From assembly GCA_025201865.1 (NCBI GenBank), contig MU602797.1, positions 1 to 45,280 of the forward strand: a stretch of 45,280 bases of DNA, written 5' to 3'. The first letter of the stretch is position 1. Every line of letters begins with the position of its first letter. The DNA is from Ramicandelaber brevisporus. Lineage: Eukaryota; Kickxellomycota; Ramicandelaberales; Ramicandelaberaceae. Positions 1 through 42,586 of this stretch are shown piece by piece. The position numbers were made by a program, and so were the translations under genes. The notes under the pieces are model-generated. The model saw only the letters and a list, made by a program, of their open reading frames with translations. It was not told the origin of the DNA and made no database searches.

Positions 1-1590
1 GGATGCTATTCCTGATAATGGCAATACTGTAACTGCCGCATAGTTCATTATATCGTCTAATCCATCCTTTTCTGCCTGTCGTCTCTTTCTCTCTCGTTCT
101 TGTTCTTGTACCTCTTTTTCGTTAAAGTTTGTTGATACCACTGCAAAGTCATCGTCATCATCATCTTCATCTCCATTACCATCACCATTCACTTCATTTA
201 TTGTTACAGGTGTTGCAATTGGATGCGGTCGTTTTCTAGAGTTACTGTTAATGGCTGGCGATCGATTTGTTTCGACAACCATGAAATCATCATCATCATC
301 ATCATCATAATCTTCTTCCTCTTCTTTTTCTTTCTCTGCTTCGTTGCCATCGTTGTTTATGGTATTCATGAGTGATTGGCTTTGTTGGGTGTAGTCCAAT
401 ATGATAACTGGAGCAGTTGCTGTAGTTTGAATGATCGCTTCGTCAAGGTCACCATCGTCGTTATCGTTATCACCATCGTCACCATCGTCATCGTACAGTG
501 ATATACTTTCACTTGGTCTGGTGGCATTGTTGTCATTAACTGATTGAGCAGATATTGAGTCTACGGCTGACGGCAGCGGTGCATCCGTGTGTGAATCGCT
601 AAATAATTCCTCAACTTCAACAGCAGGCAACTCGCGCTGTGCAGTGATTGTTTCGTCAAAATCATTTCCAAGAGCGCTGAGCAATTCAGAGTCACTCAAG
701 TCATCTGCGAGGAAGTCATTCTCATTATATTGTGTATATTGAGATAGCTGTTGCTGCTGCTGTTGTTGTTGAGGAATTTGTTGCTGCTGAGAAATCTGTT
801 CTGGCTTAGAGACTGATGGCTGGACCGGAGATTGTGTCGGTGATGATGGAGGTAGAGGTATATGCTCTGAGATGAGGGCATGGGAATCAATAGAGTCAAG
901 TGCAAGAGATGGTGGTTGAGCTGGATTTGGCAGTGAATCCGTCCATAAATCTTCCAGTGCTTCAATGTTTATAATATCGTCATTCTGAATTGGTGCTACT
1001 GTTGATGCTGTTATTGCTGGTAGTTCGGGATCCACAATGGGAGACAATGTGGCTTGTGGCGCAGTAATCCTCCCAGATTCTGTATTGCTATCACGGATTA
1101 TTGTTGGAAAGAAGTCATCTAGGGTGGTTCCGATTACTGTGGACGCTCGCACTGGTTGTGCTCTGTTAGCTGTTTGTTGACGCAATGATGACTGTTCTGG
1201 CTGCGTGTTTGACACATTGGTAGTGGTAGTAGTCGTTCTGAAAGGAAGAGTCGTCTGTCTTAATCCTGGTCCAGCTATTGCAGATGGTGATAGTGCTGAC
1301 GATGATGATGAGGATACCACATTCGAGCTCTGCCTAGTAGCAGCTTCCTTCCTTGCTTCAAAGTCTTCAATCAGCTGCGGTGAGATAGTGTCATCCAACA
1401 TGAACTGCGACCTTGGTGAGGATCCTTGTTCAGAGGAACCCGATCTAAAAGCAGGCTGTGCTCCAGATCCAGAGGCTGAGCTGCTGGTTACTGCTGTGAT
1501 ATGACCGTGGATGTCACTGCCAGTGCCATTGGCGTCGTTTATGTTGTATTCGTTATCGTCATCATCGCGTGTCCGTCTCATTTGCTGCAT
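1..1590 (-). CDS. RING-type E3 ligase, partial copy without its RING
   Basis: This is the mirror copy of the complete gene at 36882-38681. It reads from ATG at 1590 to the window edge, giving 530 codons. The last residues fall just before the first zinc-binding cysteine, so none of the RING domain is inside the window. The rest is present: low-complexity Ser/Gln/Asp-rich sequence, a glutamine run and acidic clusters. It has seven Asp-type repeat codons at about 287-308 where the right copy has six, a microsatellite difference. If position 1 is a real contig end, this is an assembly truncation rather than a broken gene. Confidence 0.8.
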   Translation of the reverse strand, partial: MQQMRRTRDDDDNEYNINDANGTGSDIHGHITAVTSSSASGSGAQPAFRSGSSEQGSSPRSQFMLDDTISPQLIEDFEARKEAATRQSSNVVSSSSSSALSPSAIAGPGLRQTTLPFRTTTTTTNVSNTQPEQSSLRQQTANRAQPVRASTVIGTTLDDFFPTIIRDSNTESGRITAPQATLSPIVDPELPAITASTVAPIQNDDIINIEALEDLWTDSLPNPAQPPSLALDSIDSHALISEHIPLPPSSPTQSPVQPSVSKPEQISQQQQIPQQQQQQQQLSQYTQYNENDFLADDLSDSELLSALGNDFDETITAQRELPAVEVEELFSDSHTDAPLPSAVDSISAQSVNDNNATRPSESISLYDDDGDDGDNDNDDGDLDEAIIQTTATAPVIILDYTQQSQSLMNTINNDGNEAEKEKEEEEDYDDDDDDDFMVVETNRSPAINSNSRKRPHPIATPVTINEVNGDGNGDEDDDDDDFAVVSTNFNEKEVQEQERERKRRQAEKDGLDDIMNYAAVTVLPLSGIAS

Positions 1591-1764
1591 CTTACAAAAG
1601 TTGGTGTGTTTAGATTTCTCCACACAGCAAAAGCACAAAAGAAAAAAGAGAGAAAAATGCTCAAAGAAAAAGAGAGGGAAAAGTATACAACACGAGAAGA
1701 GTGGAATGGAATGGAAGCGGGTATGAAGAACGTAGTGAAAGAGAGGGAATGGGAGAGAGAGTAT

Positions 1765-4149
1765 TTAAGAGGAAGAAGAAGAGGTGAGATGTGTATAGGA
1801 CGCGGTCAGGAATGATGTGCGACGTGCAACTTTGGCAAGCCATGACGTAGCTTTTTTCTTGCTTGATGGAGAAGTACCAAGATCGGCCGCGGACGATGCT
1901 GCAGTGGGCTGTTTACGCTGCAAGCTAGCTGCTGGAGCTGGAGGAGGCACAGGGAGATGAGGAAAGAGCAGCACGGGCTGCTGCTGAGAAAGCATCCGAG
2001 TACCATCCATGGCAAGCGAGTGGCTGCGGAAAATGAGTGGCGCCAAATCTGGAGAAACTAGCTGAGAGTACCGTTGTGGTTGCAGCTGCTCAGAGACTGC
2101 GGTTGATGCTGTTGTTGCACGTGTATGCCTTGGTGGAGCTGATGGAGATGGTAAAGATGGTGGAGATGGAGGAGACGGTTTGTTGAACGGAATTGGCATC
2201 CGTCTCTTTGGAGGAGCGCGAGCACCACCGGGACAAGAGAGTCCACGGCCTCTGCTCACTGTTGAGCTGAGAATATCTGAAGATGTAAAGCTGCTGAGAC
2301 GAGAGCCTGGTGCTGGAGTGGATATGACTGTGGAGAATGAAGGCGGATCGAGTGATTTCTCGTTCTGCGACTGGAATGGAGACATTTGTGCCAGCAAAGG
2401 TGGAAGTGGAGAATCGTGTTTACCGTCGCCCAAGCATGAATCTGGTCGGTAAAAGTGCATTGGTGGAGATACCATTGCGAGTGCCAGTGGAGAGGCTGAG
2501 GGATGCTGAGATGGCGAGAGATTGTGGCGTTCAGGCTGTGGAGATGACTGAGCTGGAGATGATGTACCTGATGATGATGGCGGAGTGACTGTTCGTGGTG
2601 ACATTTGAGACTGCTTTTGGTTGTGTTGGTGCTGTTGCTGTTTGTGAATGACAGTGTATGCATGTCTGAGCTTGGCTGAGTTGACAGATTCAGTATCAGA
2701 AAGTGCACCAAACGTGGTGTGAGTTGAGGTACGTGGGCGAGGAATCCGTGAGATGAATGGAGAGCTAGAATCAACCCGGCTGACTGACTGCAGTTTTATG
2801 CGCAAATCGTGCCATTCTTGTTCGATACGCTCGAAGCAATCAATGAGTTGTTGCTGTTGATATTGTTGCATTTGAAGAGCGGAGCGGATTGCACTCATTA
2901 ACTCTTCGACTGCATTGAGGATCTCGCTGCGGTACTTGGATGCAACCACTGGAGGGTAGCAGCGATGAGTCGATACAAGAATGTTGGCTCGCAATGTGTG
3001 AATCTGCAAAACCAACAGCTGACTACCGCAGCTGATGAGTGCCTTCGCATCACGCACTCGTTGCTGAACACTAGCCAGCTCACTCGGCAGTGCATCAAAT
3101 TGTCGCTGCACATGGTCAATACGCGTGCGCAGAGAATGGCTGGCATTTGGGAATGCTCGCAAGATACGCCGCCACAATATGCCGAGCCACACTCCCAAAT
3201 CAGTCACTTTGCGATTCCATGACGATCCATCATCTCCAAGTGCTGCTGCTGTAGCCTGCTGACTCTCGTGGAGTGCAGCTGATGAGATGGCCAGAATCTG
3301 CTCAGCTGAATGCTTGCCATCGAGATACATTGGTGCTGTGTTCCCACGCATTGAGCTTGGTGATTTGTTTCCTGTTGTAGGAGTAACATTCACTGTTGCT
3401 GCTACTATTGCTATTGCTGTTGTTGTTGTAGAAGTGGCTGCAGCTGCAACTGATGCTCTCTTACTGTCTGCCCGCAGACTGTTCATTGTCGTCTCAAAAT
3501 GCTGATCAAACGCCACAACTCGCTTCTTCCATCGTGCATCGAGCTTGCAGATTGCTTGCGCCACATTCTGGACATCATCTGCAGCACGCTCCAAACACAT
3601 TGTCAAGTCGTGCTTAGTCTTCTCATTTGCAACACTGGCTTTGACGTGATGCAGCATCGCCCATGCATTTGCCCAGCTCGTCAGCATATTCTCAAGTCGA
3701 CGGGGCACTTGCACTCGAACTCGCTCACCCTCAAATCCATCGCCAGCGACTTCATCAGTGCCATCCAATGACTGTGAAGCTGTAAACAAGGAACGAATAC
3801 GAGAGCTCAGAGCTTTGATCACATGTACCGACGAACCAAATCCACGCAACTTTGATTCAACGTCATCTATCGCTGTAGCATCACTGCCATTAGCCGCAGA
3901 ATTGGTACTGGAAGCTTGTTGCTGCTGCTGCTGTTTATGCTGTTGCTGCTGTTGAAGGTGTGAGCAGATGGAGGAGAGCCAAATATCGGCTTGACGAACA
4001 CTGCTGTCAAAGTGATTGAGCCATGCTGTTAAAGAGGTGGAATCGGCCACTGCATCTGTAGTAATGACCGGTGGCTGTGGCAGCACTATCGATGTCGCCA
4101 CTGCCGTTTTGGTCATCAATTGCTGCTCTTTCTGCTGCTCTTTCTGCAT
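1765..4149 (-). CDS. Kar9-like, SxIP-containing cytoskeletal protein (copy 1)
   Basis: The product is 794 aa and matches the copy at 34323-36707 residue for residue as far as I compared. The N-terminal half (about residues 25-460) is predicted helical with few prolines, carries a Gln-rich stretch near residues 64-78, and looks like the spectrin-like core of Kar9-type proteins. The C-terminal 330 residues are Ser/Pro/Gln-rich and basic, and hold an S-R-I-P tetrapeptide (residues 467-470) followed by P-R-P-R, which fits the SxIP motif that binds EB1/Bim1 at microtubule plus ends. ATG at 4149 is chosen because the frame further upstream opens only with a GTG. The Kar9 assignment rests on general architecture and one short motif, so it is tentative. 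Confidence 0.6.
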   Translation of the reverse strand: MQKEQQKEQQLMTKTAVATSIVLPQPPVITTDAVADSTSLTAWLNHFDSSVRQADIWLSSICSHLQQQQQHKQQQQQQASSTNSAANGSDATAIDDVESKLRGFGSSVHVIKALSSRIRSLFTASQSLDGTDEVAGDGFEGERVRVQVPRRLENMLTSWANAWAMLHHVKASVANEKTKHDLTMCLERAADDVQNVAQAICKLDARWKKRVVAFDQHFETTMNSLRADSKRASVAAAATSTTTTAIAIVAATVNVTPTTGNKSPSSMRGNTAPMYLDGKHSAEQILAISSAALHESQQATAAALGDDGSSWNRKVTDLGVWLGILWRRILRAFPNASHSLRTRIDHVQRQFDALPSELASVQQRVRDAKALISCGSQLLVLQIHTLRANILVSTHRCYPPVVASKYRSEILNAVEELMSAIRSALQMQQYQQQQLIDCFERIEQEWHDLRIKLQSVSRVDSSSPFISRIPRPRTSTHTTFGALSDTESVNSAKLRHAYTVIHKQQQHQHNQKQSQMSPRTVTPPSSSGTSSPAQSSPQPERHNLSPSQHPSASPLALAMVSPPMHFYRPDSCLGDGKHDSPLPPLLAQMSPFQSQNEKSLDPPSFSTVISTPAPGSRLSSFTSSDILSSTVSRGRGLSCPGGARAPPKRRMPIPFNKPSPPSPPSLPSPSAPPRHTRATTASTAVSEQLQPQRYSQLVSPDLAPLIFRSHSLAMDGTRMLSQQQPVLLFPHLPVPPPAPAASLQRKQPTAASSAADLGTSPSSKKKATSWLAKVARRTSFLTASYTHLTSSSSS

Positions 4150-4505
4150 GGATATTGGTCGGCTGTAGTATTTGTTCAAAAAAATAAAAATGTAATTGTG
4201 TATGGAAACAATGAAGGCAGACTCGACTTGCAAGAAAAGAAGTGTTTTTGGGGGAGACCAGGGAAAGAGAACCAAAAGAGTAAACACAACAGAATCCAGT
4301 GACAGAAAAAAGGGAAGTTGAGTTTATTCGATGTTTTGCTGCTTCTCCAGTCCGCTGTTTTTCGGAGGAGATCAATGGTCTTTAATGCAAGGGGGTGACT
4401 TTTGACATTGATAAGGGAAACTGTCAATAACAACAACAACAACAACAACAACAAAACAAGACAGGAACAACAAGAAGGACAGCAGTAAGAGCGCTCAAAC
4501 CAGAG

Positions 4506-4570
4506 CCAGGAGGTCACAGTCGACGACGATGACAGCCGAAACATTCAATGTTTTCGGCATTACCTCCTGA
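4506..4570. repeat. Nested inverted repeat (stem-loop) upstream of Kar9-like gene
   Basis: An outer pair (CCAGGAGGT at 4506-4514 and ACCTCCTGA at 4562-4570) encloses an inner near-perfect hairpin at 4535-4558 (arms GCCGAAACATT / AATGTTTTCGGC). It lies in the 751-bp interval between the NUG1 stop and the Kar9-like start, likely within the promoter or 5' UTR of the latter. The rest of that interval holds a (CAA)n run near 4430-4455 and a (CACA/CACT)n-rich tract near 4750-4825; no gene is seen there. The same structure occurs at 33906-33968. Confidence 0.6.
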
Positions 4571-4900
4571 CCAAAAAAGAGCATATTGTTTACTCACACT
4601 GTTGCTACTACTGTAGCGGTTTGGTGAGTCGATCGCCATCACTCATCATGTCGGGTCGGGGACACCGAGTCAACACAAAATTGAACACAAAACTGAACAC
4701 ATGAGTGGCGCCGCCTCTACTCTACTTCCCCGTCCAATTCTCAACAAACTTCCCACACAAACACACTCACACACAAACACACTCTCTGTCTCTGTCACTC
4801 ATTCACTCATTCACTCATTCATACACACAAATGTGGCGTTCAGGAACAGTTGAGTTACAGAAAAAAGAAATGAGTTATTAAAAAAAGAATAGTTGTAAGT

Positions 4901-6901
4901 TTACTCCATATCAACATCCTTGTCAACGCCGCGGCCGGATGACTTCTTGCCGAGATATTTCTTGAAGTTGTAATCGGTATCTGGGTCATCGCTGCCATCA
5001 TCTTCGGCATTGCCGTTGCCGCCAATATCCATACGAGATGCAGCCCATGCGGCGTGTCTGCGATCCTCCTTTTGCTGCTTCTTGGCAGCCTTCTTTTGCA
5101 CATCGCGCAGATCAACAGTCTTGTTGGCTGCGGCTTCGGCAGTCGACACCTTGGCCTTGGCAGTCTTGTAATTGTCAGCCTGACTCTTGCCGCCCTTCTG
5201 CTTGAACTGGACAACCGTCTTGTTCGGTGCTGGGGCATCTTCATCATCGTCAGATTCATCCATTGCATCAGAGTCATCCTCGTCCATGTCATCGGAATCA
5301 TCGTCGTCATCCATGTCGCTGTCCATCTCATCAGAATCGTAATCCGCTCCATCCATGTCCTCATCGCTGCTCAGCTCGTCCATGCCGTTGTCGATGGTAG
5401 CATCCAAAACGCTGCCCGATGCCATCTTGAAACTGTTCTTGAATTCCTTGGTAGCCTTGGTCGAGTCCAGCACCAGCTTGTCAGCAGCGCCGCCATTCTC
5501 AGACAGCAGTGCGTCAATGTCAAACTCCTTGCTCCAAGTGTTGACAAACGTCGTCTGCTCAACCTTGGCCTCCAGCTTGGTCGAACCGGCGGATGGCGGC
5601 AGAGTGTAGTACGAGATGCGACCAGTGTTCCAGTCGTTCAAGATGACACGAGCTGCCTCGTAAATGTTTGGCACGCCACCACGGATCAAGCGACCGCGCT
5701 TGCGAGCCAGCTCAGCCAAGAACGACGTTGTGTTAAGGAACGCTGGAACTGAGTAGAACTTGCTCAGCTGCTCTGGATCACAGCGAGACACAATGATGTC
5801 GACTGGAGCCACTGGATCTTGCAGCAGCTCAACCTTGACGCAGTTGCGCAGCATGATTTCGGCAGCTGTGCGCTTGTCGACGCCATCGCTGCGAGCAAAC
5901 ACAATACCGGGGCAGTCAATGAGCTTGATGTTCTTGTCGAGAATGATTTCCTGGGCAACTTTGGTGGCGCCTGGAGTGGCAGCGACTTGACAGACCTTGG
6001 CACGCTTCAGCGAGTTGATCACACTGGATTTGCCGACATTTGGGAAACCAATAATGCCGACAGTGACGCTGGTCTTCATGTTGAGAGACCGAGAGTAGTT
6101 CTTGAGCAGCTTGATCAATGTATCAGCACCAACACACTCGCTGCCCTGCATCATGGCGTCGGAGGCATTCACAGCTGAACCACTGCCGGCGTGACCAAGA
6201 TTGCTGCGCTGCTGCTGAGTGGATGCCTTGAATGCAATAGTCGGGAACTCGTTACGCAAATGACGCAGCCAGCCCTCGAGAGCCTCGCGCGGTACCAAGT
6301 CACTCTTGTTGAGCAACAAAACCAGACGCTTGTTTGTTCCACTGTCGACAACCATCTTCTCAATCTCGCGTGCACGGCAACCCAGTGGATCGCGTGCATC
6401 CAAGACCTGAATAATCACATCCGCACTCTCAAGCACCTTGTTGAATTCACGATAGTACGCACGACGCGAGTTATCCTTGCGTCCACTCGTTGCTCCCTCG
6501 GTTTCCGCTCCCATTGCAAACGAATCCAGTGCTGCTAATCTCGCTGCCTCATCCTTGTCAAATGCCGCACCAGCTGCAGTAGCCCGCTTGGCCATCTCTG
6601 CAATCGAATTCGAATTGCTCGCCAATCCACGATTTTGATTTGCCAACTGCAGACGCTGATTCTTTTGACGCTCCCGCATTTCCTCAACCTGTCGCTTGTT
6701 CTTCTGGGCTTGCTCGAGAATCTTGTCCTTGAATGGAAGCAGGGATGGAATGCCCGGATCCTTGTGCTTTTTCGACTGATGGAGATTAGGGTTCTTGCGA
6801 GCCTCCTTGCGGGCTTTGCGACGAGCTTCGCGCGCGTTCTTTTCGTTCTTGTAGCGGCGAGATGCTGACTGCCGCTTCGACTTGTGCTGTTTTGGAACCA
6901 T
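4901..6901 (-). CDS. NUG1: NUG1/nucleostemin-family nucleolar GTPase (copy 1)
   Basis: This circularly permuted GTPase acts in 60S ribosomal subunit maturation and export (established for yeast Nug1 and human GNL3). The 666-aa product starts with a basic coiled segment typical of the family (about residues 1-90, with K-D-P-G-I-P at 48-52). The G motifs are in permuted order: D-A-R-D-P near 168-172, G4 N-K-S-D at 198-201, G1 G-F-P-N-V-G-K-S-S at 285-293 and G3 D-C-P-G at 329-332. A long Asp/Glu/Met-rich acidic region follows from about residue 515, then a Lys-rich tail. The start is ATG 6901. The protein appears identical to that of 31574-33574; the DNA differs by rare silent SNPs. Confidence 0.95.
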   Translation of the reverse strand: MVPKQHKSKRQSASRRYKNEKNAREARRKARKEARKNPNLHQSKKHKDPGIPSLLPFKDKILEQAQKNKRQVEEMRERQKNQRLQLANQNRGLASNSNSIAEMAKRATAAGAAFDKDEAARLAALDSFAMGAETEGATSGRKDNSRRAYYREFNKVLESADVIIQVLDARDPLGCRAREIEKMVVDSGTNKRLVLLLNKSDLVPREALEGWLRHLRNEFPTIAFKASTQQQRSNLGHAGSGSAVNASDAMMQGSECVGADTLIKLLKNYSRSLNMKTSVTVGIIGFPNVGKSSVINSLKRAKVCQVAATPGATKVAQEIILDKNIKLIDCPGIVFARSDGVDKRTAAEIMLRNCVKVELLQDPVAPVDIIVSRCDPEQLSKFYSVPAFLNTTSFLAELARKRGRLIRGGVPNIYEAARVILNDWNTGRISYYTLPPSAGSTKLEAKVEQTTFVNTWSKEFDIDALLSENGGAADKLVLDSTKATKEFKNSFKMASGSVLDATIDNGMDELSSDEDMDGADYDSDEMDSDMDDDDDSDDMDEDDSDAMDESDDDEDAPAPNKTVVQFKQKGGKSQADNYKTAKAKVSTAEAAANKTVDLRDVQKKAAKKQQKEDRRHAAWAASRMDIGGNGNAEDDGSDDPDTDYNFKKYLGKKSSGRGVDKDVDME

Positions 6902-7089
6902 CCGTATATGTGTATGTATATAAGTGTCTTTTCTTTTTCTTTTCTTCTTTTTAGATGCGCAAATCCGCCAGATCAACTTACACTGCTGTACTCACTCAAA
7001 AAAACAACGCTGAAAATGAAAAATGAAAAATGAAAAATAAATATCCTCTCGTATTGAATACACCGCTTGTTTAATAAAAAAAAACAAAT

Positions 7090-8733
7090 TTACAGAATTT
7101 GAACATTATAGACTTCAATGCGAGGATACATGGATTGCAACTTTGTGATCACATCTTGTGAATATCCTGGTATGTGTATAGTGGTCAAATTGGGAAACAG
7201 TGAGACGAGCGCAAAGAATGCCTCGGCTGTGGAAGATTTCTGTCCCTCGTATTCGACGGACAGCACCCATACCGTTGACAATAGCGAAGGATGAACGCCT
7301 TTTAGGTCGCTTGGTTTCCAGTAACAATTGGAGTACTTTACTACTCGAATTCCGGGTGTGTCCATCACAAACTGAAGAGTTGCTGCCACCCTGTAGGATC
7401 CGACAAATTTCACTGAACGAAGACACTGGCTCACTGATGTGCTACCAAGTCTCTGTGCCAGCTGCAGTGGCTGCAGTGGTGGGTATTGACGCAATCGAGA
7501 GCCGTTTGTCAATGAATGAGTTGATGTTGAAGTTGACGCTGATGCTGATGTTGATGATGATGTTGATATTGGAGAATAGTTAAAGTTGACGGCAGCTATA
7601 CAAAGATCGCTTGCACGAAGCAAGTATGGCACGATATCAGCTACATTGACAGACGACGATGCCGATGAAACTTGTAGATGTAAACTGGTCAAATTAGGTA
7701 GCGCCTTGAGAATCTCCACAACTGGCTCCAGCCGCATATACGACATTCTGAGTGCAAGCTGAGTGATGCTGGGCCAACGAATAGAGAAGATGTCATCCGT
7801 TGCATAGCCATACTTTGCAATGTTGCCACAGCCCATGTCACTCACTGTTAAATCCATCTTTTCAAGACTTGGAAACCGAGCTGGAGCAATGGATGTAAAG
7901 TCAAAAGTCTCGGTGTTGCGACAGCAAACGCTGAGCTGGAGTTCACGCAAACACGGATAGATGGTCATTTGCTGTGCAGCGCCAATAACTGCTCCAAGTT
8001 TCGCAACTACACATCTTCGTCTGTATCCACCCCATAGCAGCAGCTTTGTGAGCATTGGTATAAACTGTGGTTCAACTGGCGAATTCACCTCCTCATAAGG
8101 AAGAGCAAGTACAAGCTGAATGCGATGCAAATCATGAATCATATTCATAACTTTACATGTAATAACATATTCGTCGCTACTATACGATCTATCGAGCCAG
8201 ACAATATCTTGTACATGGCCGCTTCTCGTAGGGTCGTTGATCCAGTTCACCAGAGCTCTGTACTTGGAAGCAAGTGTGTTAAATGGGTGTAGAATCACTC
8301 GCCTTAGATGTCGCATCTTGCCGAGATGCTCGCTAATCACCACATGTGGACACGATGCAACGTAGACCTCGAGAGTCTTCACATTCGAGAACACAGCTGC
8401 CACATCAAGGTCAGGGCATTTTGACATGTCTAGCAAGCAAAGGTATCGTACATATCGGCCAAACACTGAAACACGTCGGTACAAGGTAGAGTCACTCACA
8501 AACGAAGCGCTCACTCTGAAACGCTTGTATCGTGAGCGCAGGTACACTGGAATGTCACCACACACGGCGTGGAAATTGTCCAGTGAGTGACTAGAGCAGT
8601 GATCAAGCACAAGTTCGATGAGCTCCTCGGGTAGACTGAACAGTCGGAAGCCGCTGGTAAAGAGCAGCAGCTTTGACGAAGACGCTGCCGTTGTCACTGC
8701 CGAACGCCTTCCCGTTATAATCTTCTTGCCCAT
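7090..8733 (-). CDS. F-box-like leucine-rich protein, type A (intact copy)
   Basis: The product is 547 aa. The N-terminus (about residues 28-75) has the F-box pattern L-P-E-E-L-I-E-L-V-L followed by a helical segment. The remainder has irregular leucine-rich strands (for example repeated L-x-x-L-x-L near residues 125, 265 and 345), typical of fungal F-box/LRR-like substrate adaptors of SCF ubiquitin ligases. A Ser/Thr-rich low-complexity insert lies near residues 385-410. It sits head-to-tail 188 bp upstream of NUG1 and 129 bp from the divergently transcribed secreted-peptide gene at 8863. The right-arm partner at 29744-31386 differs at roughly 20 residues and carries a frameshift, so this is the intact copy. 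No substrate can be inferred. Confidence 0.8.
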   Translation of the reverse strand: MGKKIITGRRSAVTTAASSSKLLLFTSGFRLFSLPEELIELVLDHCSSHSLDNFHAVCGDIPVYLRSRYKRFRVSASFVSDSTLYRRVSVFGRYVRYLCLLDMSKCPDLDVAAVFSNVKTLEVYVASCPHVVISEHLGKMRHLRRVILHPFNTLASKYRALVNWINDPTRSGHVQDIVWLDRSYSSDEYVITCKVMNMIHDLHRIQLVLALPYEEVNSPVEPQFIPMLTKLLLWGGYRRRCVVAKLGAVIGAAQQMTIYPCLRELQLSVCCRNTETFDFTSIAPARFPSLEKMDLTVSDMGCGNIAKYGYATDDIFSIRWPSITQLALRMSYMRLEPVVEILKALPNLTSLHLQVSSASSSVNVADIVPYLLRASDLCIAAVNFNYSPISTSSSTSASASTSTSTHSLTNGSRLRQYPPLQPLQLAQRLGSTSVSQCLRSVKFVGSYRVAATLQFVMDTPGIRVVKYSNCYWKPSDLKGVHPSLLSTVWVLSVEYEGQKSSTAEAFFALVSLFPNLTTIHIPGYSQDVITKLQSMYPRIEVYNVQIL

Positions 8734-8862
8734 CGTGATGACTGATGAGCACGAAGAGGGAGATTAATAATTAATGGCTTGTTTGTTTTTCGTGAATTAA
8801 CATCCGAATCCAATGTGGGTTAACCAGCCATTGGCATCAACACTCGAATACGTTATTCACAA

Positions 8863-9048
8863 ATGAAATCTACTACTTTCATCTTGCTTGCAGTTGTGTT
8901 CGTTGCATTGGTCGTTGTACCCCAGGACCCAACGTGTTACATTAGATGCATCAGCATCTATCAAACCTATATCATATCGCAACCACAAAGCGCACACATC
9001 CGTCAGCATGATATCTGCCTGCATGATTGTGACAATTGCGGAGAGTGA
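8863..9048 (+). CDS. Small secreted cysteine-containing peptide
   Basis: This 61-aa product has a clear signal peptide (basic start M-K-S-T-T, hydrophobic core to about residue 20). The short mature part has five cysteines (a C-x3-C pair after residue 24 and three near the C-terminus, C-L-H-D-C-D-N-C). It is transcribed divergently from F-box A and converges on F-box B. The mirror copy (29342-29605, -) keeps the signal peptide but differs in about a quarter of aligned residues. A one-base indel near the end makes the right copy read on for 26 extra residues. No family recognised; expression is unproven. Confidence 0.6.
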   Translation: MKSTTFILLAVVFVALVVVPQDPTCYIRCISIYQTYIISQPQSAHIRQHDICLHDCDNCGE

Positions 9049-9169
9049 GGAGAGAGCAGCGGATACTAAAGCCCGACAAACTGTGCTCACACAACAGTAT
9101 CAATCAGCGCCACTTATCACTGATCAACACTAACCTAACTTTAATGAACTAAATACAAATTAAACAGCA

Positions 9170-26601: not shown

Positions 26602-26666
26602 ACCGGAGTGGCAGCGGCGACAGCAGCAGCAAGCACGACGGCGGCGAAGACAGTGAAGCGGGCCAT
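26559..26666 (-). pseudogene. Signal-peptide remnant of the 8-Cys secreted gene
   Basis: ATG 26666 encodes the first 23 residues of the secreted protein (M-A-R-F-T-V...T-P-V-D). The frame then runs into antisense F-box sequence for 12 codons before a stop. The cysteine domain is absent. The TATA box remains at 26798-26805, so a 35-aa product could in principle still be transcribed. Confidence 0.7.
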
Positions 26667-29295: not shown

Positions 29296-29341
29296 TTTTG
29301 TTTAATTTTTAGTTATACAGTTGAAGCTAATTTAGTGTTGA

Positions 29342-29605
29342 TCAGTGATAAGTGGCGCTAACAGATGTTGGTGTGTGTATGAACACAGACAGCCTGGCTT
29401 TGATACTGAGGACTCTCTCCTCACTCTCTGCAACTTCGTAGTCATGCAGGCAGATACTACGCTGACGGATGCATACGCTTTGTGGCTGCGATATGAGACA
29501 AGTCTGATAGGTGCTGGTGCATCTAATGTAACACGTTGGGTTCTGGGCTACAGCGACCAATGCAACGAACACAGCTGCAAGCAAGATGAAAGTAGTAGAT
29601 TTCAT
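29342..29605 (-). CDS. Small secreted peptide, right-arm copy with extended C-terminus
   Basis: The product is 87 aa with a signal peptide almost the same as at 8863-9048 (M-K-S-T-T-F-I-L-L-A). It has five cysteines, but the last two of the left copy are lost: a one-base difference shifts the frame after C-L-H-D and adds 26 residues without cysteines. Either copy could be the altered one. It is convergent with F-box B and divergent from F-box A. Confidence 0.5.
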   Translation of the reverse strand: MKSTTFILLAAVFVALVAVAQNPTCYIRCTSTYQTCLISQPQSVCIRQRSICLHDYEVAESEERVLSIKARLSVFIHTPTSVSATYH

Positions 29606-29743
29606 TTGTGAATAACGTATCCGAGTGTTGATGCCAATGGCTGGTTAACTTACATTTAATATGGTTGCTAATTTACGAAACAAACAAACAAGCCATTAAT
29701 TATTAATCTCTCTCTTCGTGCTCATCAGTCATCAGTCATCACG

Positions 29744-31386
29744 ATGGGCAAGAAGATTACAACGGGAAGGCGTTCGGCAGTGACAACGGCAGCGTCTTCG
29801 TCAAAGCTGCTGCTCTTTACCAGCGGCTTCCGACTGTTCAGTCTACCCGAGGAGCTCATCGAACTTGTGCTTGATCACTGCTCTAGTCACTCACTGGACA
29901 ATTTCCACGTCGTATGTGGTGACATTCCAGTGTACCTGCGCTCACGATACAAGCGTTTCAGAGTGAGCGCTTCGTTCGTGAGTGACTCTACCTTGTACCG
30001 ACGTGCTTCAGTGTTTGGCCGATATGTACGACACCTTTGCTTGCTGGACATGTCAAAATGCTCTAGTCTTAACGTGGCAGCTGTGTTCTCGAATGTGAAG
30101 ATTCTCGAGGTCTACGTTGCATCGTGTCCACATGTGGTGATTAGCGAGCATCTCGGCATGATGCGACATCTAAGGCGAGTGATTCTACACCCATTTAACA
30201 CACTTGCTTCCAAGTACAGAGCTCTGGTGAACTGGATCAACGACCCTACGAGAAGCGGCCATGTACAAGATATTGTCTGGCTCGATAGATCGTATAGTAG
30301 CGACGAATATGTTATTACATGTAAAGTTATGAGTATGATTCATGATTGCATCGCATTCGACTCATACTTGCTCTTCCATATGAGGAGGTGAATTCACCGG
30401 TTGAACCGCAGTTTATACCAATACTCACTAAACTGTTGCTATGGGATGGATACAGACGAAGATGTGTAGTTGCGAAACTTGGAGCAGTTATTGGCGCTGT
30501 ACAGCAAATGACCATCTATCCGTGTTTGCGTGAACTCCAGCTCAGCGTTTGCTGTCGCAACACCGAGACTTTTGACTTTACATCCATTGCTCCAGCTAGG
30601 TTTCCAAGTCTTGAAAAGATGGATTTAACAGTGAGTGACATGGGCTGTGGCAACATTGCAAAGTATGGCTATGCAACGGATGACATCTTCTCTATTCGTT
30701 GGCCCAGCATCACTCAGCTTGCACTCAGAATGTCGTATATGCGGCTGGAGCCAGTAGTGGTGATTCTCAAGGCACTGCCTAATTTGACCAGTTTGCATCT
30801 GCAAGTTTCATCGGCATCGTCGCCTGTCAATGTAGCTGATATCGTGCCATACTTGCCTCGTGCTCGCGATCTTTGTATAGCTGCCGTCAACTTTAACTAT
30901 TCTCCAATATCAACATCATCATCAACATCAGCATCAGCGTCAACTTCAACATCAACTCATTCATTGACAAACGGCTCTCGATTGCGTCAATACCCACCAC
31001 TGCAGCCACTGCAGCTGGCACAGAGACTTGGTAGCACATCAGTGAGCCAGTGTCTTCGTTCAGTGAAATTTGTCGGATCCTACAGGGTGGCAGCAACTCT
31101 TCAGTTTGTGATGGACACACCCGGAATTCGAGTAGTAAAGTACTCCAATTGTTACTGGAAACCAAGCGACCTAAAGGGCATTCATCCTTCGCTACTGTCA
31201 ACGGTATGTGTGCTGTCCGTCGAATACGAGGGACAGAAATCTTCCACAGCCGAGGCATTCTTTGCGCTCGTCTCACTGTTTCCCAATTTGACCACTATAC
31301 ACATACCAGGATATTCACAAGATGTGATCACAAAGTTGCAATCCATGTATCCTCGCATTGAAGTCTATAATGTTCAAATTCTGTAA
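29744..31386 (+). pseudogene. F-box type A, right-arm copy with frameshift
   Basis: The N-terminal part (from ATG 29744) matches the intact left-arm gene. A T is missing in the run at 30346-30347 compared with the left copy (ATTG against ATTTG), and the frame leaves the family sequence after about residue 200, stopping at 30391. The remaining 345 residues continue in another frame to 31386. About 20 further residue changes separate the copies. This could be a genuine pseudogene or a sequencing error, though the added divergence favours a real difference. Confidence 0.75.
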
Positions 31387-31573
31387 ATTTGTTTTTTTTT
31401 ATTAAACAAGCGGTGTATTCAATACGAGAGGATATTTATTTTTCATTTTTCATTTTTCATTTTCAGCGTTGTTTTTTTGAGTGAGTACAGCAGTGTAAGT
31501 TGATCTGGCGGATTTGCGCATCTAAAAAGAAGAAAAGAAAAGAAAAGACACTTATATACATACACATATACGG

Positions 31574-33574
31574 ATGGTTCCAAAACAGCACAAGTCGAAG
31601 CGGCAGTCAGCATCTCGCCGCTACAAGAACGAAAAGAACGCGCGCGAAGCTCGTCGCAAAGCCCGCAAGGAGGCTCGCAAGAACCCTAATCTCCATCAGT
31701 CGAAAAAGCACAAGGATCCGGGTATTCCATCCCTGCTTCCATTCAAGGACAAGATTCTCGAGCAAGCCCAGAAGAACAAGCGACAGGTTGAGGAAATGCG
31801 GGAGCGTCAAAAGAATCAGCGTCTGCAGTTGGCAAATCAAAATCGTGGATTGGCGAGCAATTCGAATTCGATTGCAGAGATGGCCAAGCGGGCTACTGCA
31901 GCTGGTGCGGCATTTGACAAGGATGAGGCAGCGAGATTAGCAGCACTGGATTCGTTTGCAATGGGAGCGGAAACCGAGGGAGCAACGAGTGGACGCAAGG
32001 ATAACTCGCGTCGTGCGTACTATCGTGAATTCAACAAGGTGCTTGAGAGTGCGGATGTGATTATTCAGGTCTTGGATGCACGCGATCCACTGGGTTGCCG
32101 TGCACGCGAGATTGAGAAGATGGTTGTCGACAGTGGAACAAACAAGCGTCTGGTTTTGTTGCTCAACAAGAGTGACTTGGTACCGCGCGAGGCTCTCGAG
32201 GGCTGGCTGCGTCATTTGCGTAACGAGTTCCCGACTATTGCATTCAAGGCATCCACTCAGCAGCAGCGCAGCAATCTTGGTCACGCCGGCAGTGGTTCAG
32301 CTGTGAATGCCTCCGACGCCATGATGCAGGGCAGCGAGTGTGTTGGTGCTGATACATTGATCAAGCTGCTCAAGAACTACTCTCGTTCTCTCAACATGAA
32401 GACCAGCGTCACTGTCGGCATTATTGGTTTCCCAAATGTCGGCAAATCCAGTGTGATCAACTCGCTGAAGCGTGCCAAGGTCTGTCAAGTCGCTGCCACT
32501 CCAGGCGCCACCAAAGTTGCCCAGGAAATCATTCTCGACAAGAACATCAAGCTCATTGACTGCCCCGGTATTGTGTTTGCTCGCAGCGATGGCGTCGACA
32601 AGCGCACAGCTGCCGAAATCATGCTGCGCAACTGCGTCAAGGTTGAGCTGCTGCAAGATCCAGTGGCTCCAGTCGACATCATTGTGTCTCGCTGTGATCC
32701 AGAGCAGCTGAGCAAGTTCTACTCAGTTCCAGCGTTCCTTAACACAACGTCGTTCTTGGCTGAGCTGGCTCGCAAGCGCGGTCGCTTGATCCGTGGTGGC
32801 GTGCCAAACATTTACGAGGCAGCTCGTGTCATCTTGAACGACTGGAACACTGGTCGCATCTCGTACTACACTCTGCCGCCATCCGCCGGTTCGACCAAGC
32901 TGGAGGCCAAGGTTGAGCAGACGACGTTTGTCAACACTTGGAGCAAGGAGTTTGACATTGACGCACTGCTGTCTGAGAATGGCGGCGCTGCTGACAAGCT
33001 GGTGCTGGACTCGACCAAGGCTACCAAGGAATTCAAGAACAGTTTCAAGATGGCATCGGGCAGCGTTTTGGATGCTACCATCGACAACGGCATGGACGAG
33101 CTGAGCAGCGATGAGGACATGGATGGAGCGGATTACGATTCTGATGAGATGGACAGCGACATGGATGACGACGATGATTCCGATGACATGGACGAGGATG
33201 ACTCTGATGCAATGGATGAATCTGACGATGATGAAGATGCCCCAGCACCGAACAAGACGGTTGTCCAGTTCAAGCAGAAGGGCGGCAAGAGTCAGGCTGA
33301 CAATTACAAGACTGCCAAGGCCAAGGTGTCGACTGCCGAAGCCGCAGCCAACAAGACTGTTGATCTGCGCGATGTGCAAAAGAAGGCTGCCAAGAAGCAG
33401 CAAAAGGAGGATCGCAGACACGCCGCATGGGCTGCATCTCGTATGGATATTGGCGGCAACGGCAATGCCGAAGATGATGGCAGCGATGACCCAGATACCG
33501 ATTACAACTTCAAGAAATATCTCGGCAAGAAGTCATCCGGCCGCGGCGTTGACAAGGATGTTGATATGGAGTAA
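31574..33574 (+). CDS. NUG1: NUG1/nucleostemin-family nucleolar GTPase (copy 2)
   Basis: This is the mirror copy of 4901-6901, with the same 666-aa product: basic N-terminal coil, permuted G4-G1-G3 motifs and acidic C-terminal region. The DNA differs only by rare SNPs (for example one in the codon series for D-P-G-I-P near 31722) and by one A in the upstream purine run near 31540. Two identical copies of a normally single-copy essential gene are unexpected, and point to a very recent duplication or two alleles in one scaffold. Confidence 0.95.
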   Translation: MVPKQHKSKRQSASRRYKNEKNAREARRKARKEARKNPNLHQSKKHKDPGIPSLLPFKDKILEQAQKNKRQVEEMRERQKNQRLQLANQNRGLASNSNSIAEMAKRATAAGAAFDKDEAARLAALDSFAMGAETEGATSGRKDNSRRAYYREFNKVLESADVIIQVLDARDPLGCRAREIEKMVVDSGTNKRLVLLLNKSDLVPREALEGWLRHLRNEFPTIAFKASTQQQRSNLGHAGSGSAVNASDAMMQGSECVGADTLIKLLKNYSRSLNMKTSVTVGIIGFPNVGKSSVINSLKRAKVCQVAATPGATKVAQEIILDKNIKLIDCPGIVFARSDGVDKRTAAEIMLRNCVKVELLQDPVAPVDIIVSRCDPEQLSKFYSVPAFLNTTSFLAELARKRGRLIRGGVPNIYEAARVILNDWNTGRISYYTLPPSAGSTKLEAKVEQTTFVNTWSKEFDIDALLSENGGAADKLVLDSTKATKEFKNSFKMASGSVLDATIDNGMDELSSDEDMDGADYDSDEMDSDMDDDDDSDDMDEDDSDAMDESDDDEDAPAPNKTVVQFKQKGGKSQADNYKTAKAKVSTAEAAANKTVDLRDVQKKAAKKQQKEDRRHAAWAASRMDIGGNGNAEDDGSDDPDTDYNFKKYLGKKSSGRGVDKDVDME

Positions 33575-33905
33575 ACTTACAACTATTCTTTTTTTAATAA
33601 CTCATTTCTTTTTTCTGTAACTCAACTGTTCCTGAACGCCACATTTGTGTGTATGAATGAGTGAATGAGTGAATGAGTGACAGAGACAGAGAGTGTGTTT
33701 GTGTGTGAGTGTGTTTGTGTGGGAAGTTTGTTGAGAATTGGACGGGGAAGTAGAGTAGAGGCGGCGCCACTCATGTGTTCAGTTTTGTGTTCAATTTTGT
33801 GTTGACTCGGTGTCCCCGACCCGACATGATGAGTGATGGCGATCGACTCACCAAACCGCTACAGTAGTAGCAACAGTGTGAGTAAACAATATGCTCTTTT
33901 TTGGT

Positions 33906-33968
33906 CAGGAGGTAATGCCGAAAACATTGAATGTTTCGGCTGTCATCGTCGTCGACTGTGACCTCCTG
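33906..33968. repeat. Nested inverted repeat, right-arm copy
   Basis: The outer pair CAGGAGGT/ACCTCCTG (33906-33913, 33961-33968) encloses the hairpin at 33917-33940. It is the same as the structure at 4506-4570, in the 748-bp NUG1 to Kar9-like interval, which also has (GTT)n near 34021-34042 and no gene. Confidence 0.6.
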
Positions 33969-34322
33969 GCTCTGGTTTGAGCGCTCTTACTGCTGTCCTT
34001 CTTGTTGTTCCTGTCTTGTTTTGTTGTTGTTGTTGTTGTTGTTATTGACAGTTTCCCTTATCAATGTCAAAAGTCACCCCCTTGCATTAAAGACCATTGA
34101 TCTCCTCCGAAAAACAGCGGACTGGAGAAGCAGCAAAACATCGAGTAAACTCAACTTCCCTTTTTTCTGTCACTGGATTCTGTTGTGTTTACTCTTTTGG
34201 TTCTCTTTCCCTGGTCTCCCCCAAAAACACTTCTTTTCTTGCAAGTCGAGTCTGCCTTCATTGTTTCCATACACAATTACATTTTTATTTTTTTGAACAA
34301 ATACTACAGCCGACCAATATCC

Positions 34323-36707
34323 ATGCAGAAAGAGCAGCAGAAAGAGCAGCAATTGATGACCAAAACGGCAGTGGCGACATCGATAGTGCTGCCACAGCCA
34401 CCTGTCATTACCACAGATGCAGTGGCCGATTCCACCTCTTTAACAGCATGGCTCAATCACTTTGACAGCAGTGTTCGTCAAGCCGATATTTGGCTCTCCT
34501 CCATCTGCTCACACCTTCAACAGCAGCAACAGCATAAACAGCAGCAGCAGCAACAAGCTTCCAGTACCAATTCTGCGGCTAATGGCAGTGATGCTACAGC
34601 GATAGATGACGTTGAATCAAAGTTGCGTGGATTTGGTTCGTCGGTACATGTGATCAAAGCTCTGAGCTCTCGTATTCGTTCCTTGTTTACAGCTTCACAG
34701 TCATTGGATGGCACTGATGAAGTCGCTGGCGATGGATTTGAGGGTGAGCGAGTTCGAGTGCAAGTGCCCCGTCGACTTGAGAATATGCTGACGAGCTGGG
34801 CAAATGCATGGGCGATGCTGCATCACGTCAAAGCCAGTGTTGCAAATGAGAAGACTAAGCACGACTTGACAATGTGTTTGGAGCGTGCTGCAGATGATGT
34901 CCAGAATGTGGCGCAAGCAATCTGCAAGCTCGATGCACGATGGAAGAAGCGAGTTGTGGCGTTTGATCAGCATTTTGAGACGACAATGAACAGTCTGCGG
35001 GCAGACAGTAAGAGAGCATCAGTTGCAGCTGCAGCCACTTCTACAACAACAACAGCAATAGCAATAGTAGCAGCAACAGTGAATGTTACTCCTACAACAG
35101 GAAACAAATCACCAAGCTCAATGCGTGGGAACACAGCACCAATGTATCTCGATGGCAAGCATTCAGCTGAGCAGATTCTGGCCATCTCATCAGCTGCACT
35201 CCACGAGAGTCAGCAGGCTACAGCAGCAGCACTTGGAGATGATGGATCGTCATGGAATCGCAAAGTGACTGATTTGGGAGTGTGGCTCGGCATATTGTGG
35301 CGGCGTATCTTGCGAGCATTCCCAAATGCCAGCCATTCTCTGCGCACGCGTATTGACCATGTGCAGCGACAATTTGATGCACTGCCGAGTGAGCTGGCTA
35401 GTGTTCAGCAACGAGTGCGTGATGCGAAGGCACTCATCAGCTGCGGTAGTCAGCTGTTGGTTTTGCAGATTCACACATTGCGAGCCAACATTCTTGTATC
35501 GACTCATCGCTGCTACCCTCCAGTGGTTGCATCCAAGTACCGCAGCGAGATCCTCAATGCAGTCGAAGAGTTAATGAGTGCAATCCGCTCCGCTCTTCAA
35601 ATGCAACAATATCAACAGCAACAACTCATTGATTGCTTCGAGCGTATCGAACAAGAATGGCACGATTTGCGCATAAAACTGCAGTCAGTCAGCCGGGTTG
35701 ATTCTAGCTCTCCATTCATCTCACGGATTCCTCGCCCACGTACCTCAACTCACACCACGTTTGGTGCACTTTCTGATACTGAATCTGTCAACTCAGCCAA
35801 GCTCAGACATGCATACACTGTCATTCACAAACAGCAACAGCACCAACACAACCAAAAGCAGTCTCAAATGTCACCACGAACAGTCACTCCGCCATCATCA
35901 TCAGGTACATCATCTCCAGCTCAGTCATCTCCACAGCCTGAACGCCACAATCTCTCGCCATCTCAGCATCCCTCAGCCTCTCCACTGGCACTCGCAATGG
36001 TATCTCCACCAATGCACTTTTACCGACCAGATTCATGCTTGGGCGACGGTAAACACGATTCTCCACTTCCACCTTTGCTGGCACAAATGTCTCCATTCCA
36101 GTCGCAGAACGAGAAATCACTCGATCCGCCTTCATTCTCCACAGTCATATCCACTCCAGCACCAGGCTCTCGTCTCAGCAGCTTTACATCTTCAGATATT
36201 CTCAGCTCAACAGTGAGCAGAGGCCGTGGACTCTCTTGTCCCGGTGGTGCTCGCGCTCCTCCAAAGAGACGGATGCCAATTCCGTTCAACAAACCGTCTC
36301 CTCCATCTCCACCATCTTTACCATCTCCATCAGCTCCACCAAGGCATACACGTGCAACAACAGCATCAACCGCAGTCTCTGAGCAGCTGCAACCACAACG
36401 GTACTCTCAGCTAGTTTCTCCAGATTTGGCGCCACTCATTTTCCGCAGCCACTCGCTTGCCATGGATGGTACTCGGATGCTTTCTCAGCAGCAGCCCGTG
36501 CTGCTCTTTCCTCATCTCCCTGTGCCTCCTCCAGCTCCAGCAGCTAGCTTGCAGCGTAAACAGCCCACTGCAGCATCGTCCGCGGCCGATCTTGGTACTT
36601 CTCCATCAAGCAAGAAAAAAGCTACGTCATGGCTTGCCAAAGTTGCACGTCGCACATCATTCCTGACCGCGTCCTATACACATCTCACCTCTTCTTCTTC
36701 CTCTTAA
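34323..36707 (+). CDS. Kar9-like, SxIP-containing cytoskeletal protein (copy 2)
   Basis: The 794-aa product equals that of 1765-4149. The SxIP motif (S-R-I-P) is at residues 467-470, encoded at 35721-35732, in a Ser/Pro/basic setting that favours EB1 binding. Helical N-terminal half, Gln-rich inserts near 64-78 and 415-430, and a long Ser/Pro tail ending in a basic Lys/Arg segment. ATG 34323 is used because the frame further upstream starts only with GTG. Known Kar9 proteins link microtubule plus ends to actin-based transport for spindle orientation; this role is inferred here. Confidence 0.6.
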   Translation: MQKEQQKEQQLMTKTAVATSIVLPQPPVITTDAVADSTSLTAWLNHFDSSVRQADIWLSSICSHLQQQQQHKQQQQQQASSTNSAANGSDATAIDDVESKLRGFGSSVHVIKALSSRIRSLFTASQSLDGTDEVAGDGFEGERVRVQVPRRLENMLTSWANAWAMLHHVKASVANEKTKHDLTMCLERAADDVQNVAQAICKLDARWKKRVVAFDQHFETTMNSLRADSKRASVAAAATSTTTTAIAIVAATVNVTPTTGNKSPSSMRGNTAPMYLDGKHSAEQILAISSAALHESQQATAAALGDDGSSWNRKVTDLGVWLGILWRRILRAFPNASHSLRTRIDHVQRQFDALPSELASVQQRVRDAKALISCGSQLLVLQIHTLRANILVSTHRCYPPVVASKYRSEILNAVEELMSAIRSALQMQQYQQQQLIDCFERIEQEWHDLRIKLQSVSRVDSSSPFISRIPRPRTSTHTTFGALSDTESVNSAKLRHAYTVIHKQQQHQHNQKQSQMSPRTVTPPSSSGTSSPAQSSPQPERHNLSPSQHPSASPLALAMVSPPMHFYRPDSCLGDGKHDSPLPPLLAQMSPFQSQNEKSLDPPSFSTVISTPAPGSRLSSFTSSDILSSTVSRGRGLSCPGGARAPPKRRMPIPFNKPSPPSPPSLPSPSAPPRHTRATTASTAVSEQLQPQRYSQLVSPDLAPLIFRSHSLAMDGTRMLSQQQPVLLFPHLPVPPPAPAASLQRKQPTAASSAADLGTSPSSKKKATSWLAKVARRTSFLTASYTHLTSSSSS

Positions 36708-36881
36708 ATACTCTCTCTCCCATTCCCTCTCTTTCACTACGTTCTTCATACCCGCTTCCATTCCATTCCACTCTTCTCGTGTTGTATACTTTTCCCTCTC
36801 TTTTTCTTTGAGCATTTTTCTCTCTTTTTTCTTTTGTGCTTTTGCTGTGTGGAGAAATCTAAACACACCAACTTTTGTAAG

Positions 36882-38681
36882 ATGCAGCAAATGAGACGGA
36901 CACGCGATGATGACGATAACGAATACAACATAAACGACGCCAATGGCACTGGCAGTGACATCCACGGTCATATCACAGCAGTAACCAGCAGCTCAGCCTC
37001 TGGATCTGGAGCACAGCCTGCTTTTAGATCGGGTTCCTCTGAACAAGGATCCTCACCAAGGTCGCAGTTCATGTTGGATGACACTATCTCACCGCAGCTG
37101 ATTGAAGACTTTGAAGCAAGGAAGGAAGCTGCTACTAGGCAGAGCTCGAATGTGGTATCCTCATCATCATCGTCAGCACTATCACCATCTGCAATAGCTG
37201 GACCAGGATTAAGACAGACGACTCTTCCTTTCAGAACGACTACTACCACTACCAATGTGTCAAACACGCAGCCAGAACAGTCATCATTGCGTCAACAAAC
37301 AGCTAACAGAGCACAACCAGTGCGAGCGTCCACAGTAATCGGAACCACCCTAGATGACTTCTTTCCAACAATAATCCGTGATAGCAATACAGAATCTGGG
37401 AGGATTACTGCGCCACAAGCCACATTGTCTCCCATTGTGGATCCCGAACTACCAGCAATAACAGCATCAACAGTAGCACCAATTCAGAATGACGATATTA
37501 TAAACATTGAAGCACTGGAAGATTTATGGACGGATTCACTGCCAAATCCAGCTCAACCACCATCTCTTGCACTTGACTCTATTGATTCCCATGCCCTCAT
37601 CTCAGAGCATATACCTCTACCTCCATCATCACCGACACAATCTCCGGTCCAGCCATCAGTCTCTAAGCCAGAACAGATTTCTCAGCAGCAACAAATTCCT
37701 CAACAACAACAGCAGCAGCAACAGCTATCTCAATATACACAATATAATGAGAATGACTTCCTCGCAGATGACTTGAGTGACTCTGAATTGCTCAGCGCTC
37801 TTGGAAATGATTTTGACGAAACAATCACTGCACAGCGCGAGTTGCCTGCTGTTGAAGTTGAGGAATTATTTAGCGATTCACACACGGATGCACCGCTGCC
37901 GTCAGCCGTAGACTCAATATCTGCTCAATCAGTTAATGACAACAATGCCACCAGACCAAGTGAAAGTATATCACTGTACGATGACGATGGTGACGATGGT
38001 GATAACGATAACGACGATGGTGACCTTGACGAAGCGATCATTCAAACTACAGCAACTGCTCCAGTTATCATATTGGACTACACCCAACAAAGCCAATCAC
38101 TCATGAATACCATAAACAACGATGGCAACGAAGCAGAGAAAGAAAAAGAAGAGGAAGAAGATTATGATGATGATGATGATGATTTCATGGTTGTCGAAAC
38201 AAATCGATCGCCAGCCATTAACAGTAACTCTAGAAAACGACCGCATCCAATTGCAACACCTGTAACAATAAATGAAGTGAATGGTGATGGTAATGGAGAT
38301 GAAGATGATGATGACGATGACTTTGCAGTGGTATCAACAAACTTTAACGAAAAAGAGGTACAAGAACAAGAACGAGAGAGAAAGAGACGACAGGCAGAAA
38401 AGGATGGATTAGACGATATAATGAACTATGCGGCAGTTACAGTATTGCCATTATCAGGAATAGCATCCACTAAATGCGTAGTTTGTTTGGATGTGCCTAC
38501 TCCTGCTGTCTGCACTCCCTGTGGTCACATCTTCTGTGAAACCTGCATATTGAACTCTGTCTCTCAACTAGGCAACTGTCCTGTATGTAGAAAGAAGCTA
38601 TCAAACTCTAAAGGACTACGAGTACTACAGTTCAGCACAGCTCCCGGAAGAATAGTCACTCTACCATCAGCCGTGAGTTAA
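36882..38681 (+). CDS. RING-type E3 ligase, candidate SUMO-targeted ubiquitin ligase
   Basis: The product is 599 aa from ATG 36882; an upstream in-frame extension has only a TTG. The C-terminal C3HC4 RING has ligands C532, C535, C547, H549, C552, C555, C566 and C569. The long N-terminal part is disordered (Ser, Gln, Asp). Three hydrophobic clusters next to Asp/Glu runs look like SUMO-interacting motifs: V-I-I-L-D near 395, F-M-V-V-E near 435 and F-A-V-V-S near 481. A SIM-rich tail with a C-terminal RING is the plan of Slx8/RNF4 ligases, which ubiquitinate SUMO-modified proteins in the nucleus. This assignment is inferred; only the RING is certain. The inverted repeat ends three residues before C532. 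Confidence 0.8.
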   Translation: MQQMRRTRDDDDNEYNINDANGTGSDIHGHITAVTSSSASGSGAQPAFRSGSSEQGSSPRSQFMLDDTISPQLIEDFEARKEAATRQSSNVVSSSSSSALSPSAIAGPGLRQTTLPFRTTTTTTNVSNTQPEQSSLRQQTANRAQPVRASTVIGTTLDDFFPTIIRDSNTESGRITAPQATLSPIVDPELPAITASTVAPIQNDDIINIEALEDLWTDSLPNPAQPPSLALDSIDSHALISEHIPLPPSSPTQSPVQPSVSKPEQISQQQQIPQQQQQQQQLSQYTQYNENDFLADDLSDSELLSALGNDFDETITAQRELPAVEVEELFSDSHTDAPLPSAVDSISAQSVNDNNATRPSESISLYDDDGDDGDNDNDDGDLDEAIIQTTATAPVIILDYTQQSQSLMNTINNDGNEAEKEKEEEEDYDDDDDDFMVVETNRSPAINSNSRKRPHPIATPVTINEVNGDGNGDEDDDDDDFAVVSTNFNEKEVQEQERERKRRQAEKDGLDDIMNYAAVTVLPLSGIASTKCVVCLDVPTPAVCTPCGHIFCETCILNSVSQLGNCPVCRKKLSNSKGLRVLQFSTAPGRIVTLPSAVS

Positions 38682-42573: not shown

Positions 42574-42586
42574 GAGTAGAGAAGAG

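Follow-up and report, generated by a model that had tools for sequence, protein, structure and literature searches.

The 45,280-nt stretch of the Ramicandelaber brevisporus genome analysed here (the window, by which this whole stretch is meant) carries a large inverted repeat. Its arms share three nearly identical outer genes, coding for a RING-finger protein, a 794-aa protein and a GTPase, and two inner F-box-like genes, A and B, the second of which differs strongly between the arms. R. brevisporus is a soil fungus of the Kickxellomycota for which a draft genome is available. The window makes up an entire contig of it; deposited R. brevisporus proteins (GQ42DRAFT records) correspond to those that it encodes. 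We consider it probable (roughly 0.7) that the palindrome is an assembly product, namely a false (haplotype, heterotype) duplication combined with inverted scaffolding; for its origin we infer a two-haplotype source, a wrong join and allelism of the two B copies. If this is correct, any gene counts and "palindromes" taken from this draft should be verified; the GTPase gene, part of the RING gene and three kinases are doubled in a manner resembling assembly duplication.

Divergence between the two arms

The window consists of three sequence contigs (1-11131, 12078-25452 and 25463-45280), split by runs of 946 N and 10 N. The arms, the gaps and the genes of the arms are as follows.

1-11131: left arm, forming a sequence contig of its own and mirroring 38468-27305; starts within the RING gene and ends in the F-box-like B promoter
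11132-12077: scaffold gap of 946 N, linking the left arm to the middle contig
25453-25462: gap of 10 N, with a copy of the same promoter repeat on either side (U1/U2, 90.7% alike)
27305-38468: right arm, matching the left arm colinearly in reverse; the sequence beyond it, up to 45280, has no left-arm counterpart
36882-38681, plus strand: RING-finger protein, complete in the right arm only; left copy 1-1590 (minus) cut by the contig start
34323-36707, plus strand: 794-aa protein without Pfam match; left copy 1765-4149 (minus)
31574-33574, plus strand: GNL3L/Grn1-type GTPase (PF08701, PF01926); left copy 4901-6901 (minus)
7090-8733, minus strand: F-box-like/LRR protein A, left copy, open 547-aa frame; deposited model GQ42DRAFT_162398
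29744-31386, plus strand: F-box-like/LRR protein A, right copy, with a one-base frame break relative to the left copy; deposited model GQ42DRAFT_162403
8863-9048, plus strand: small secreted peptide, 61 aa; right counterpart 29605-29342 (minus), 87 aa
9170-10717, minus strand: F-box-like protein B, left copy, 515 aa
27748-29295, plus strand: F-box-like protein B, right copy, 515 aa; 69.5% aa identity with the left copy

Positions 1-11131 aligned with 38468-27305, read in reverse, at 94.99% identity over 11183 alignment columns. The inverted repeat of more than 11 kb described in a first-pass annotation, which was made from the letters alone, is thus present. Its right arm had been placed from 26060 onwards, but the true start is 27305, and the match at 26059-26226 is a second, non-colinear copy of the promoter repeat.

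The difference between the arms is very unevenly distributed. Outward of base 7200 there are 5 mismatches and 3 small indels (about 0.1% over the outer 7 kb). The RING gene differs at 0 of 1587 positions (synonymous divergence, dS, 0), the 794-aa gene at 2 of 2385 (dS 0.0034, from two synonymous differences), the intergenic stretch after it at 1 of 748, and the GTPase gene at 2 of 2001 (dS 0.0045, likewise from two synonymous differences). Further inward the differences rise to 45/1643 in F-box-like A (2.7%, dS 0.060), 67/435 in the A-B intergenic region (15.4%) and 335/1548 in F-box-like B (21.6%). The core therefore contrasts with the flank: the dS of B, 0.51, far exceeds that of A (0.060) and of the outer three (0-0.0045). 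Between the GTPase gene and B, which lie 4-5 kb apart, synonymous divergence rises about 100-fold, the outer value representing two synonymous differences. The noncoding sequence of the outer arms, with 1 mismatch per 1109 aligned intergenic bases outside A, was as unchanged as the coding sequence; constraint is therefore not the reason for the outer identity.

Most of the similarities read from the letters in the first-pass annotation held when measured, with some corrections. The three outer genes are almost identical (0, 2 and 2 differences), but the left RING gene is truncated, so that two of the three are complete in both arms. The polyglutamine tracts are free of differences; one acidic run of the RING gene is off by one codon (286-288, 3 bp). 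For B, expected at 72-75%, the measured value was slightly lower (358/515 residues, 69.5%). The secreted peptide between A and B is of unequal length in the two arms (61 vs 87 aa). The "step" that simple age was said not to explain is borne out by the 100-fold synonymous rise, but the change is graded and does not occur in a single step.

Within A the 45 differences are patchy, with difference-free stretches of 150-311 bp between the patches. The longest difference-free gap, 311 bp, exceeds chance expectation (p=0.0035, 20000 random placements), and the clustering in 100-bp bins was matched by 0 of 20000 random placements. This pattern fits two long-separated lineages with partial exchange, and does so for alleles and for arms alike. 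At 30348 (vs 8129) a one-base length difference breaks the reading frame of the right A copy, and the deposited right model skips the stretch around there.

Origin of the second arm

The structure of the left arm points to a contig that was built as a second version of the right arm. Base 1 lies in the middle of the RING reading frame, just 285 bp beyond the outermost arm difference (286-288), and the inner end lies at the 946-N gap; the arm has no unique outer flank. The right arm has an outer flank that is absent from the left arm, the left contig stopping at base 1. The two copies are on one scaffold with both gaps, 946 N (11132-12077) and 10 N (25453-25462), between them. In a genome search positions 4850-9100 gave 4 matches, of which two were long, both on the contig of the window, and the other two were 52 and 41 bp; the conserved GTPase gene is therefore present twice almost exactly. 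No third copy of A was found elsewhere by this search.

Similar duplicates were found at other contig ends of the assembly (contigs are given as C numbers). In a survey of kinase domains (76 rows of at least 100 bits, from 122 rows) five pairs tied exactly in score, three of the five also in span, and in each of these three one copy was within about 2.2 kb of a contig end. C484:157-4158 and C344:24000-20001 were 99.93% identical, with one mismatch and one 2-bp gap; if the match continues, the end of C344 (24156 long) would coincide with the start of C484. C465:1-4000 was about 100% identical to C234:24701-28703, the net difference being 3 bp, so that C465 starts inside C234. The third pair, C164/C275, is a tie in score, span and frame only, the C164 copy being 584 bp from the contig end. 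Divergence in the two sequence-checked pairs was of the same order as in the outer arms. Among 31 rows of an MMR_HSR1 survey the sole equal-span tie, judged by eye, was the GTPase pair of the window. Since the C484/C344 duplicate is located at two contig ends, joining these contigs head to head would yield another palindrome.

These features resemble those of known assembly duplications. The abstract of a study of three vertebrate assemblies gives heterotype duplication as the main source of false duplication, and in the same source 7-24% of false duplication is on the same scaffold, with a gap between the pair as a hallmark (PMC9516828). As far as those accounts go, the window agrees in several respects with heterotype false duplication (PMC9516828) and with allelic contigs in Assembly 19 of Candida albicans (PMC1896002): a nearly identical duplicate lies next to a gap, one of the copies stops at a contig end, the assembly has further pairs of this kind, and a single locus shows additional divergence. 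Unlike in the heterotype false duplications described there, the second copy of the window is inverted and its core is as divergent as paralogs. In the portion of a survey available to us, three of four Zoopagomycota examined were reported to be non-haploid and Ramicandelaber does not appear (PMC6784888); indirectly, by analogy with these relatives, a non-haploid state may be supposed for R. brevisporus.

The palindrome most likely arose as follows. The source would contain two versions of the locus, with low background difference and one very different place. On the outer side the versions are near-identical (about 0.1% over the outer 7 kb) and would have been mostly collapsed by the assembler, whereas the strong divergence of B would have led it to build a second, haplotype-specific contig (1-11131). 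This contig would run outward into the near-identical flank until the versions become indistinguishable. Its inner end lies in a promoter repeat common to other F-box-like B loci (at least six relatives, three of them within the window), which would invite a wrong join, and the scaffolder may have flipped the contig and placed it at the wrong end of the middle contig, with the 946-N gap between them. The 10-N gap may be comparable: it is flanked by two versions of the same promoter, 90.7% alike, and the 431 bases that precede it recur at 26997-27427. Of the three options offered in the first-pass annotation, a haplotype scaffolded in reverse is thus the best supported (no left outer flank, the gap, other contig-end duplicates); recombination between haplotypes of a variable locus may hold together with mis-scaffolding.

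The remaining option, arm-to-arm gene conversion, would require a real inverted segmental duplication. The palindrome would be old, with a spacer of 16 kb; conversion would have kept the outer parts of its arms alike, and the inner 2 kb would either have escaped conversion or have been replaced by sequence from other F-box-like B copies. In favour of this, the window and, by record length, seemingly also the deposited record have the two arms on a single scaffold, and the clustered differences within A resemble conversion patches. Human Y palindrome P6, as described in the available part of PMC3723533, likewise has arms about 99.9% alike over kilobases and an unduplicated spacer, and that source gives inferred conversion tracts with minimum lengths of up to 9 kb in a human Y palindrome. 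In contrast to P6, however, the inner 2 kb of the arms is 15-22% divergent, a left outer boundary is not seen and the linkage of the arms in one molecule is putative. The arms are not alike up to the spacer boundary (15.4%, then 21.6%, over the inner ~2 kb), and it is next to the spacer that they diverge most, which conversion alone does not predict. Taking into account also that the left arm lacks an outer flank, so that no boundary is seen there, that its inner side touches a gap, and that other near-identical duplicates occur at contig ends (C484/C344, C465/C234), we regard a real palindrome as unlikely.

Several observations weigh against false duplication. A left contig that was a plain allele should face the 25452 side of the middle contig, but in the scaffold it faces the 12078 side, so that an extra wrong join or inversion is needed. 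The other duplicate pairs could be real recent duplications instead of alleles, and for 70 of the 76 kinase rows there was no equal-span tie. For five other stretches (45.1 kb in total) no multi-kb near-identical second copy was listed, which argues for a local and not a general duplication; these stretches were picked near the locus or its relatives, not at random, and for two of them, including 12078-24165, the query's own place was unlisted as well, which makes the absence of a near-identical second copy among the matches listed a weaker one. Three of the five stretches are from C415, C359 and C245, for which no multi-kb near-identical partner that would make them haplotypes of other contigs was among the matches listed (C359 gave a dispersed repeat of up to 91%, with 40 of 188 first-look candidates scored). 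The deposited models of both A copies are on records of equal length, 50184 bp, presumably one record, which suggests that the scaffold of the depositors has the same arrangement as the window. In the part of PMC9516828 available, an Illumina hummingbird assembly has more homotype than heterotype duplication, and no published ploidy for R. brevisporus was found in the literature searched.

The orientation of the left contig would be accounted for by a heterozygous inversion, in which the 13-kb middle block lies in opposite orientations in the two haplotypes, between F-box-like B/secreted-protein repeats. Each end of the block would then truly adjoin one version of the same outer region, one per haplotype. 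This would explain the left contig at the 12078 end and the right arm at the other, with one copy of the middle block listed, and would make the scaffold compatible with allelism; on either side of the middle block the promoter repeat indeed occurs in inverted copies. However, the sequence after 12078 is neither F-box-like B nor promoter repeat, and the third neighbour expected, the outer left flank, was not identified. We think such an inversion quite improbable.

A misassembled array, in which the true genome has tandem F-box-like A/B units and two different units were attached to one collapsed flank, appears very improbable. Tandem or truncated B units do exist on C8 and at 25463-26597, but the genome search gave no other copy of A, and both A copies continue gap-free into near-identical outer sequence with their own differences. 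A chimera of single-cell amplification was also considered, Zoopagomycota having been sequenced in this way (PMC6784888, in the available part of which Ramicandelaber is not named). It was set aside: the arms are not uniformly identical, and the number of the species' strain CBS 109374, as given in the part of PMC5285503 available, is that of a culture collection; we presume the assembly to be from this strain.

The F-box-like B family and a possible hyperdivergent locus

Neither A nor B matched the Pfam F-box (PF00646/PF12937) at E 0.01; A had a weak LRR match below cut-off and B none. The label F-box-like follows the earlier naming and an N-terminal motif that we take to be of this type.

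The two B copies were compared with seven dispersed paralogs (three on C8, one each on C415, C74 and C68, and a partial one on C359); the family may be larger, as 38 of 41 candidate matches were scored. The DNA identity of left and right B is 78.4%, and identities to the paralogs are 74.2-78.2% for the left and 75.6-79.6% for the right copy. Synonymous divergence between left and right B, 0.51, is within the range of either copy vs the paralogs (0.45-0.61). A tree, from which the fragments C8:41088-41678 and C10:58969-59369 were left out as too short, did not support left and right B as sister copies (support just 55, star-like distances). Because left and right B are as distant as B paralogs, the arms in effect carry different members of a dispersed family beside A. 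On allelism at one position the B copies point both ways: the distance between them is not smaller than that to the dispersed paralogs, yet they share their outer flanks.

At two places on C8 and on C415, a secreted-protein gene and B have a divergent promoter in common; in one of the C8 cases a gap truncates the secreted-protein gene. The window holds the same B, promoter and secreted-protein parts, but broken up.

If the arms are allelic, B would be hyperdivergent with a footprint of about 2 kb. The haplotypes would then be as different in B as dispersed family members are (dS 0.51); for a gene ~2 kb away the synonymous difference is ~0.5%. It is conceivable, though we hold it only tentatively, that the arms are true alleles of a hyperdivergent locus under long-term balancing selection in an early-diverging fungus. 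Such alleles would be in keeping with a role of the locus in self-recognition or incompatibility in Kickxellomycota, perhaps next to a heterozygous inversion, and would make the site a candidate variable recognition locus in this group, in which we know of none, no dedicated search having been made. Without any selection, unequal exchange within a variable B array would lead to an identical pattern. In the part of PMC11138114 available to us, heterokaryon-incompatibility genes of Aspergillus fumigatus similarly have a very divergent coding core, and under balanced polymorphism their divergence drops off over a narrow distance, from hundreds of bases to a few kb. Unlike that work, the window is one genome with predicted genes alone, and "F-box" does not occur in that portion of the text.

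Other features of the window

The features between the arms are listed below.

12078-25452: middle contig, with an EamA-type transporter, a phospholipid methyltransferase, a Myb/U-box-matching protein (matches sub-threshold or weak), NAMPT and a secreted protein
24289-24633, minus strand: secreted protein, 114 aa, at the far end of the promoter unit common to F-box-like B at other loci
25463-26597, plus strand: promoter unit U2, carrying just the first ~90 bp of an F-box-like B gene
26598-27427: promoter unit U3, beginning inside a secreted-protein gene; its last 431 bp equal 25022-25452, the end of the middle contig

The 431 bp that end at 25452, before the 10-N gap, recur exactly in U3. The junction at 26598 is abrupt and gap-free, leading from the first ~90 bp of the F-box-like B gene directly into the secreted-protein start region. 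By eye, the secreted-protein gene (24289-24633) is nearly identical across loci, whereas its promoter and the paired F-box-like B are strongly divergent.

The deposited record of 50184 bp is 4904 longer than the window with its 45280; C415 is also shorter than its deposited counterpart (13243 vs 18196), as are C68 and C8. Positions 4896-8940 of C359 hold a dispersed repeat, of which partial copies (identity up to 91%) are present on C252, C47, C7, C435 and further contigs. Three pieces of a comparison contig taken by number (C130, 22 kb) matched only themselves; the first 4830 bases of the first piece, which may be N, gave no self-match. At the right end of the window, 43060-45280 contains an F-box-related gene with PF00646 just below cut-off, of which copies were found at C79:22556-24753 (89%) and C168:3080-4467 (84%).

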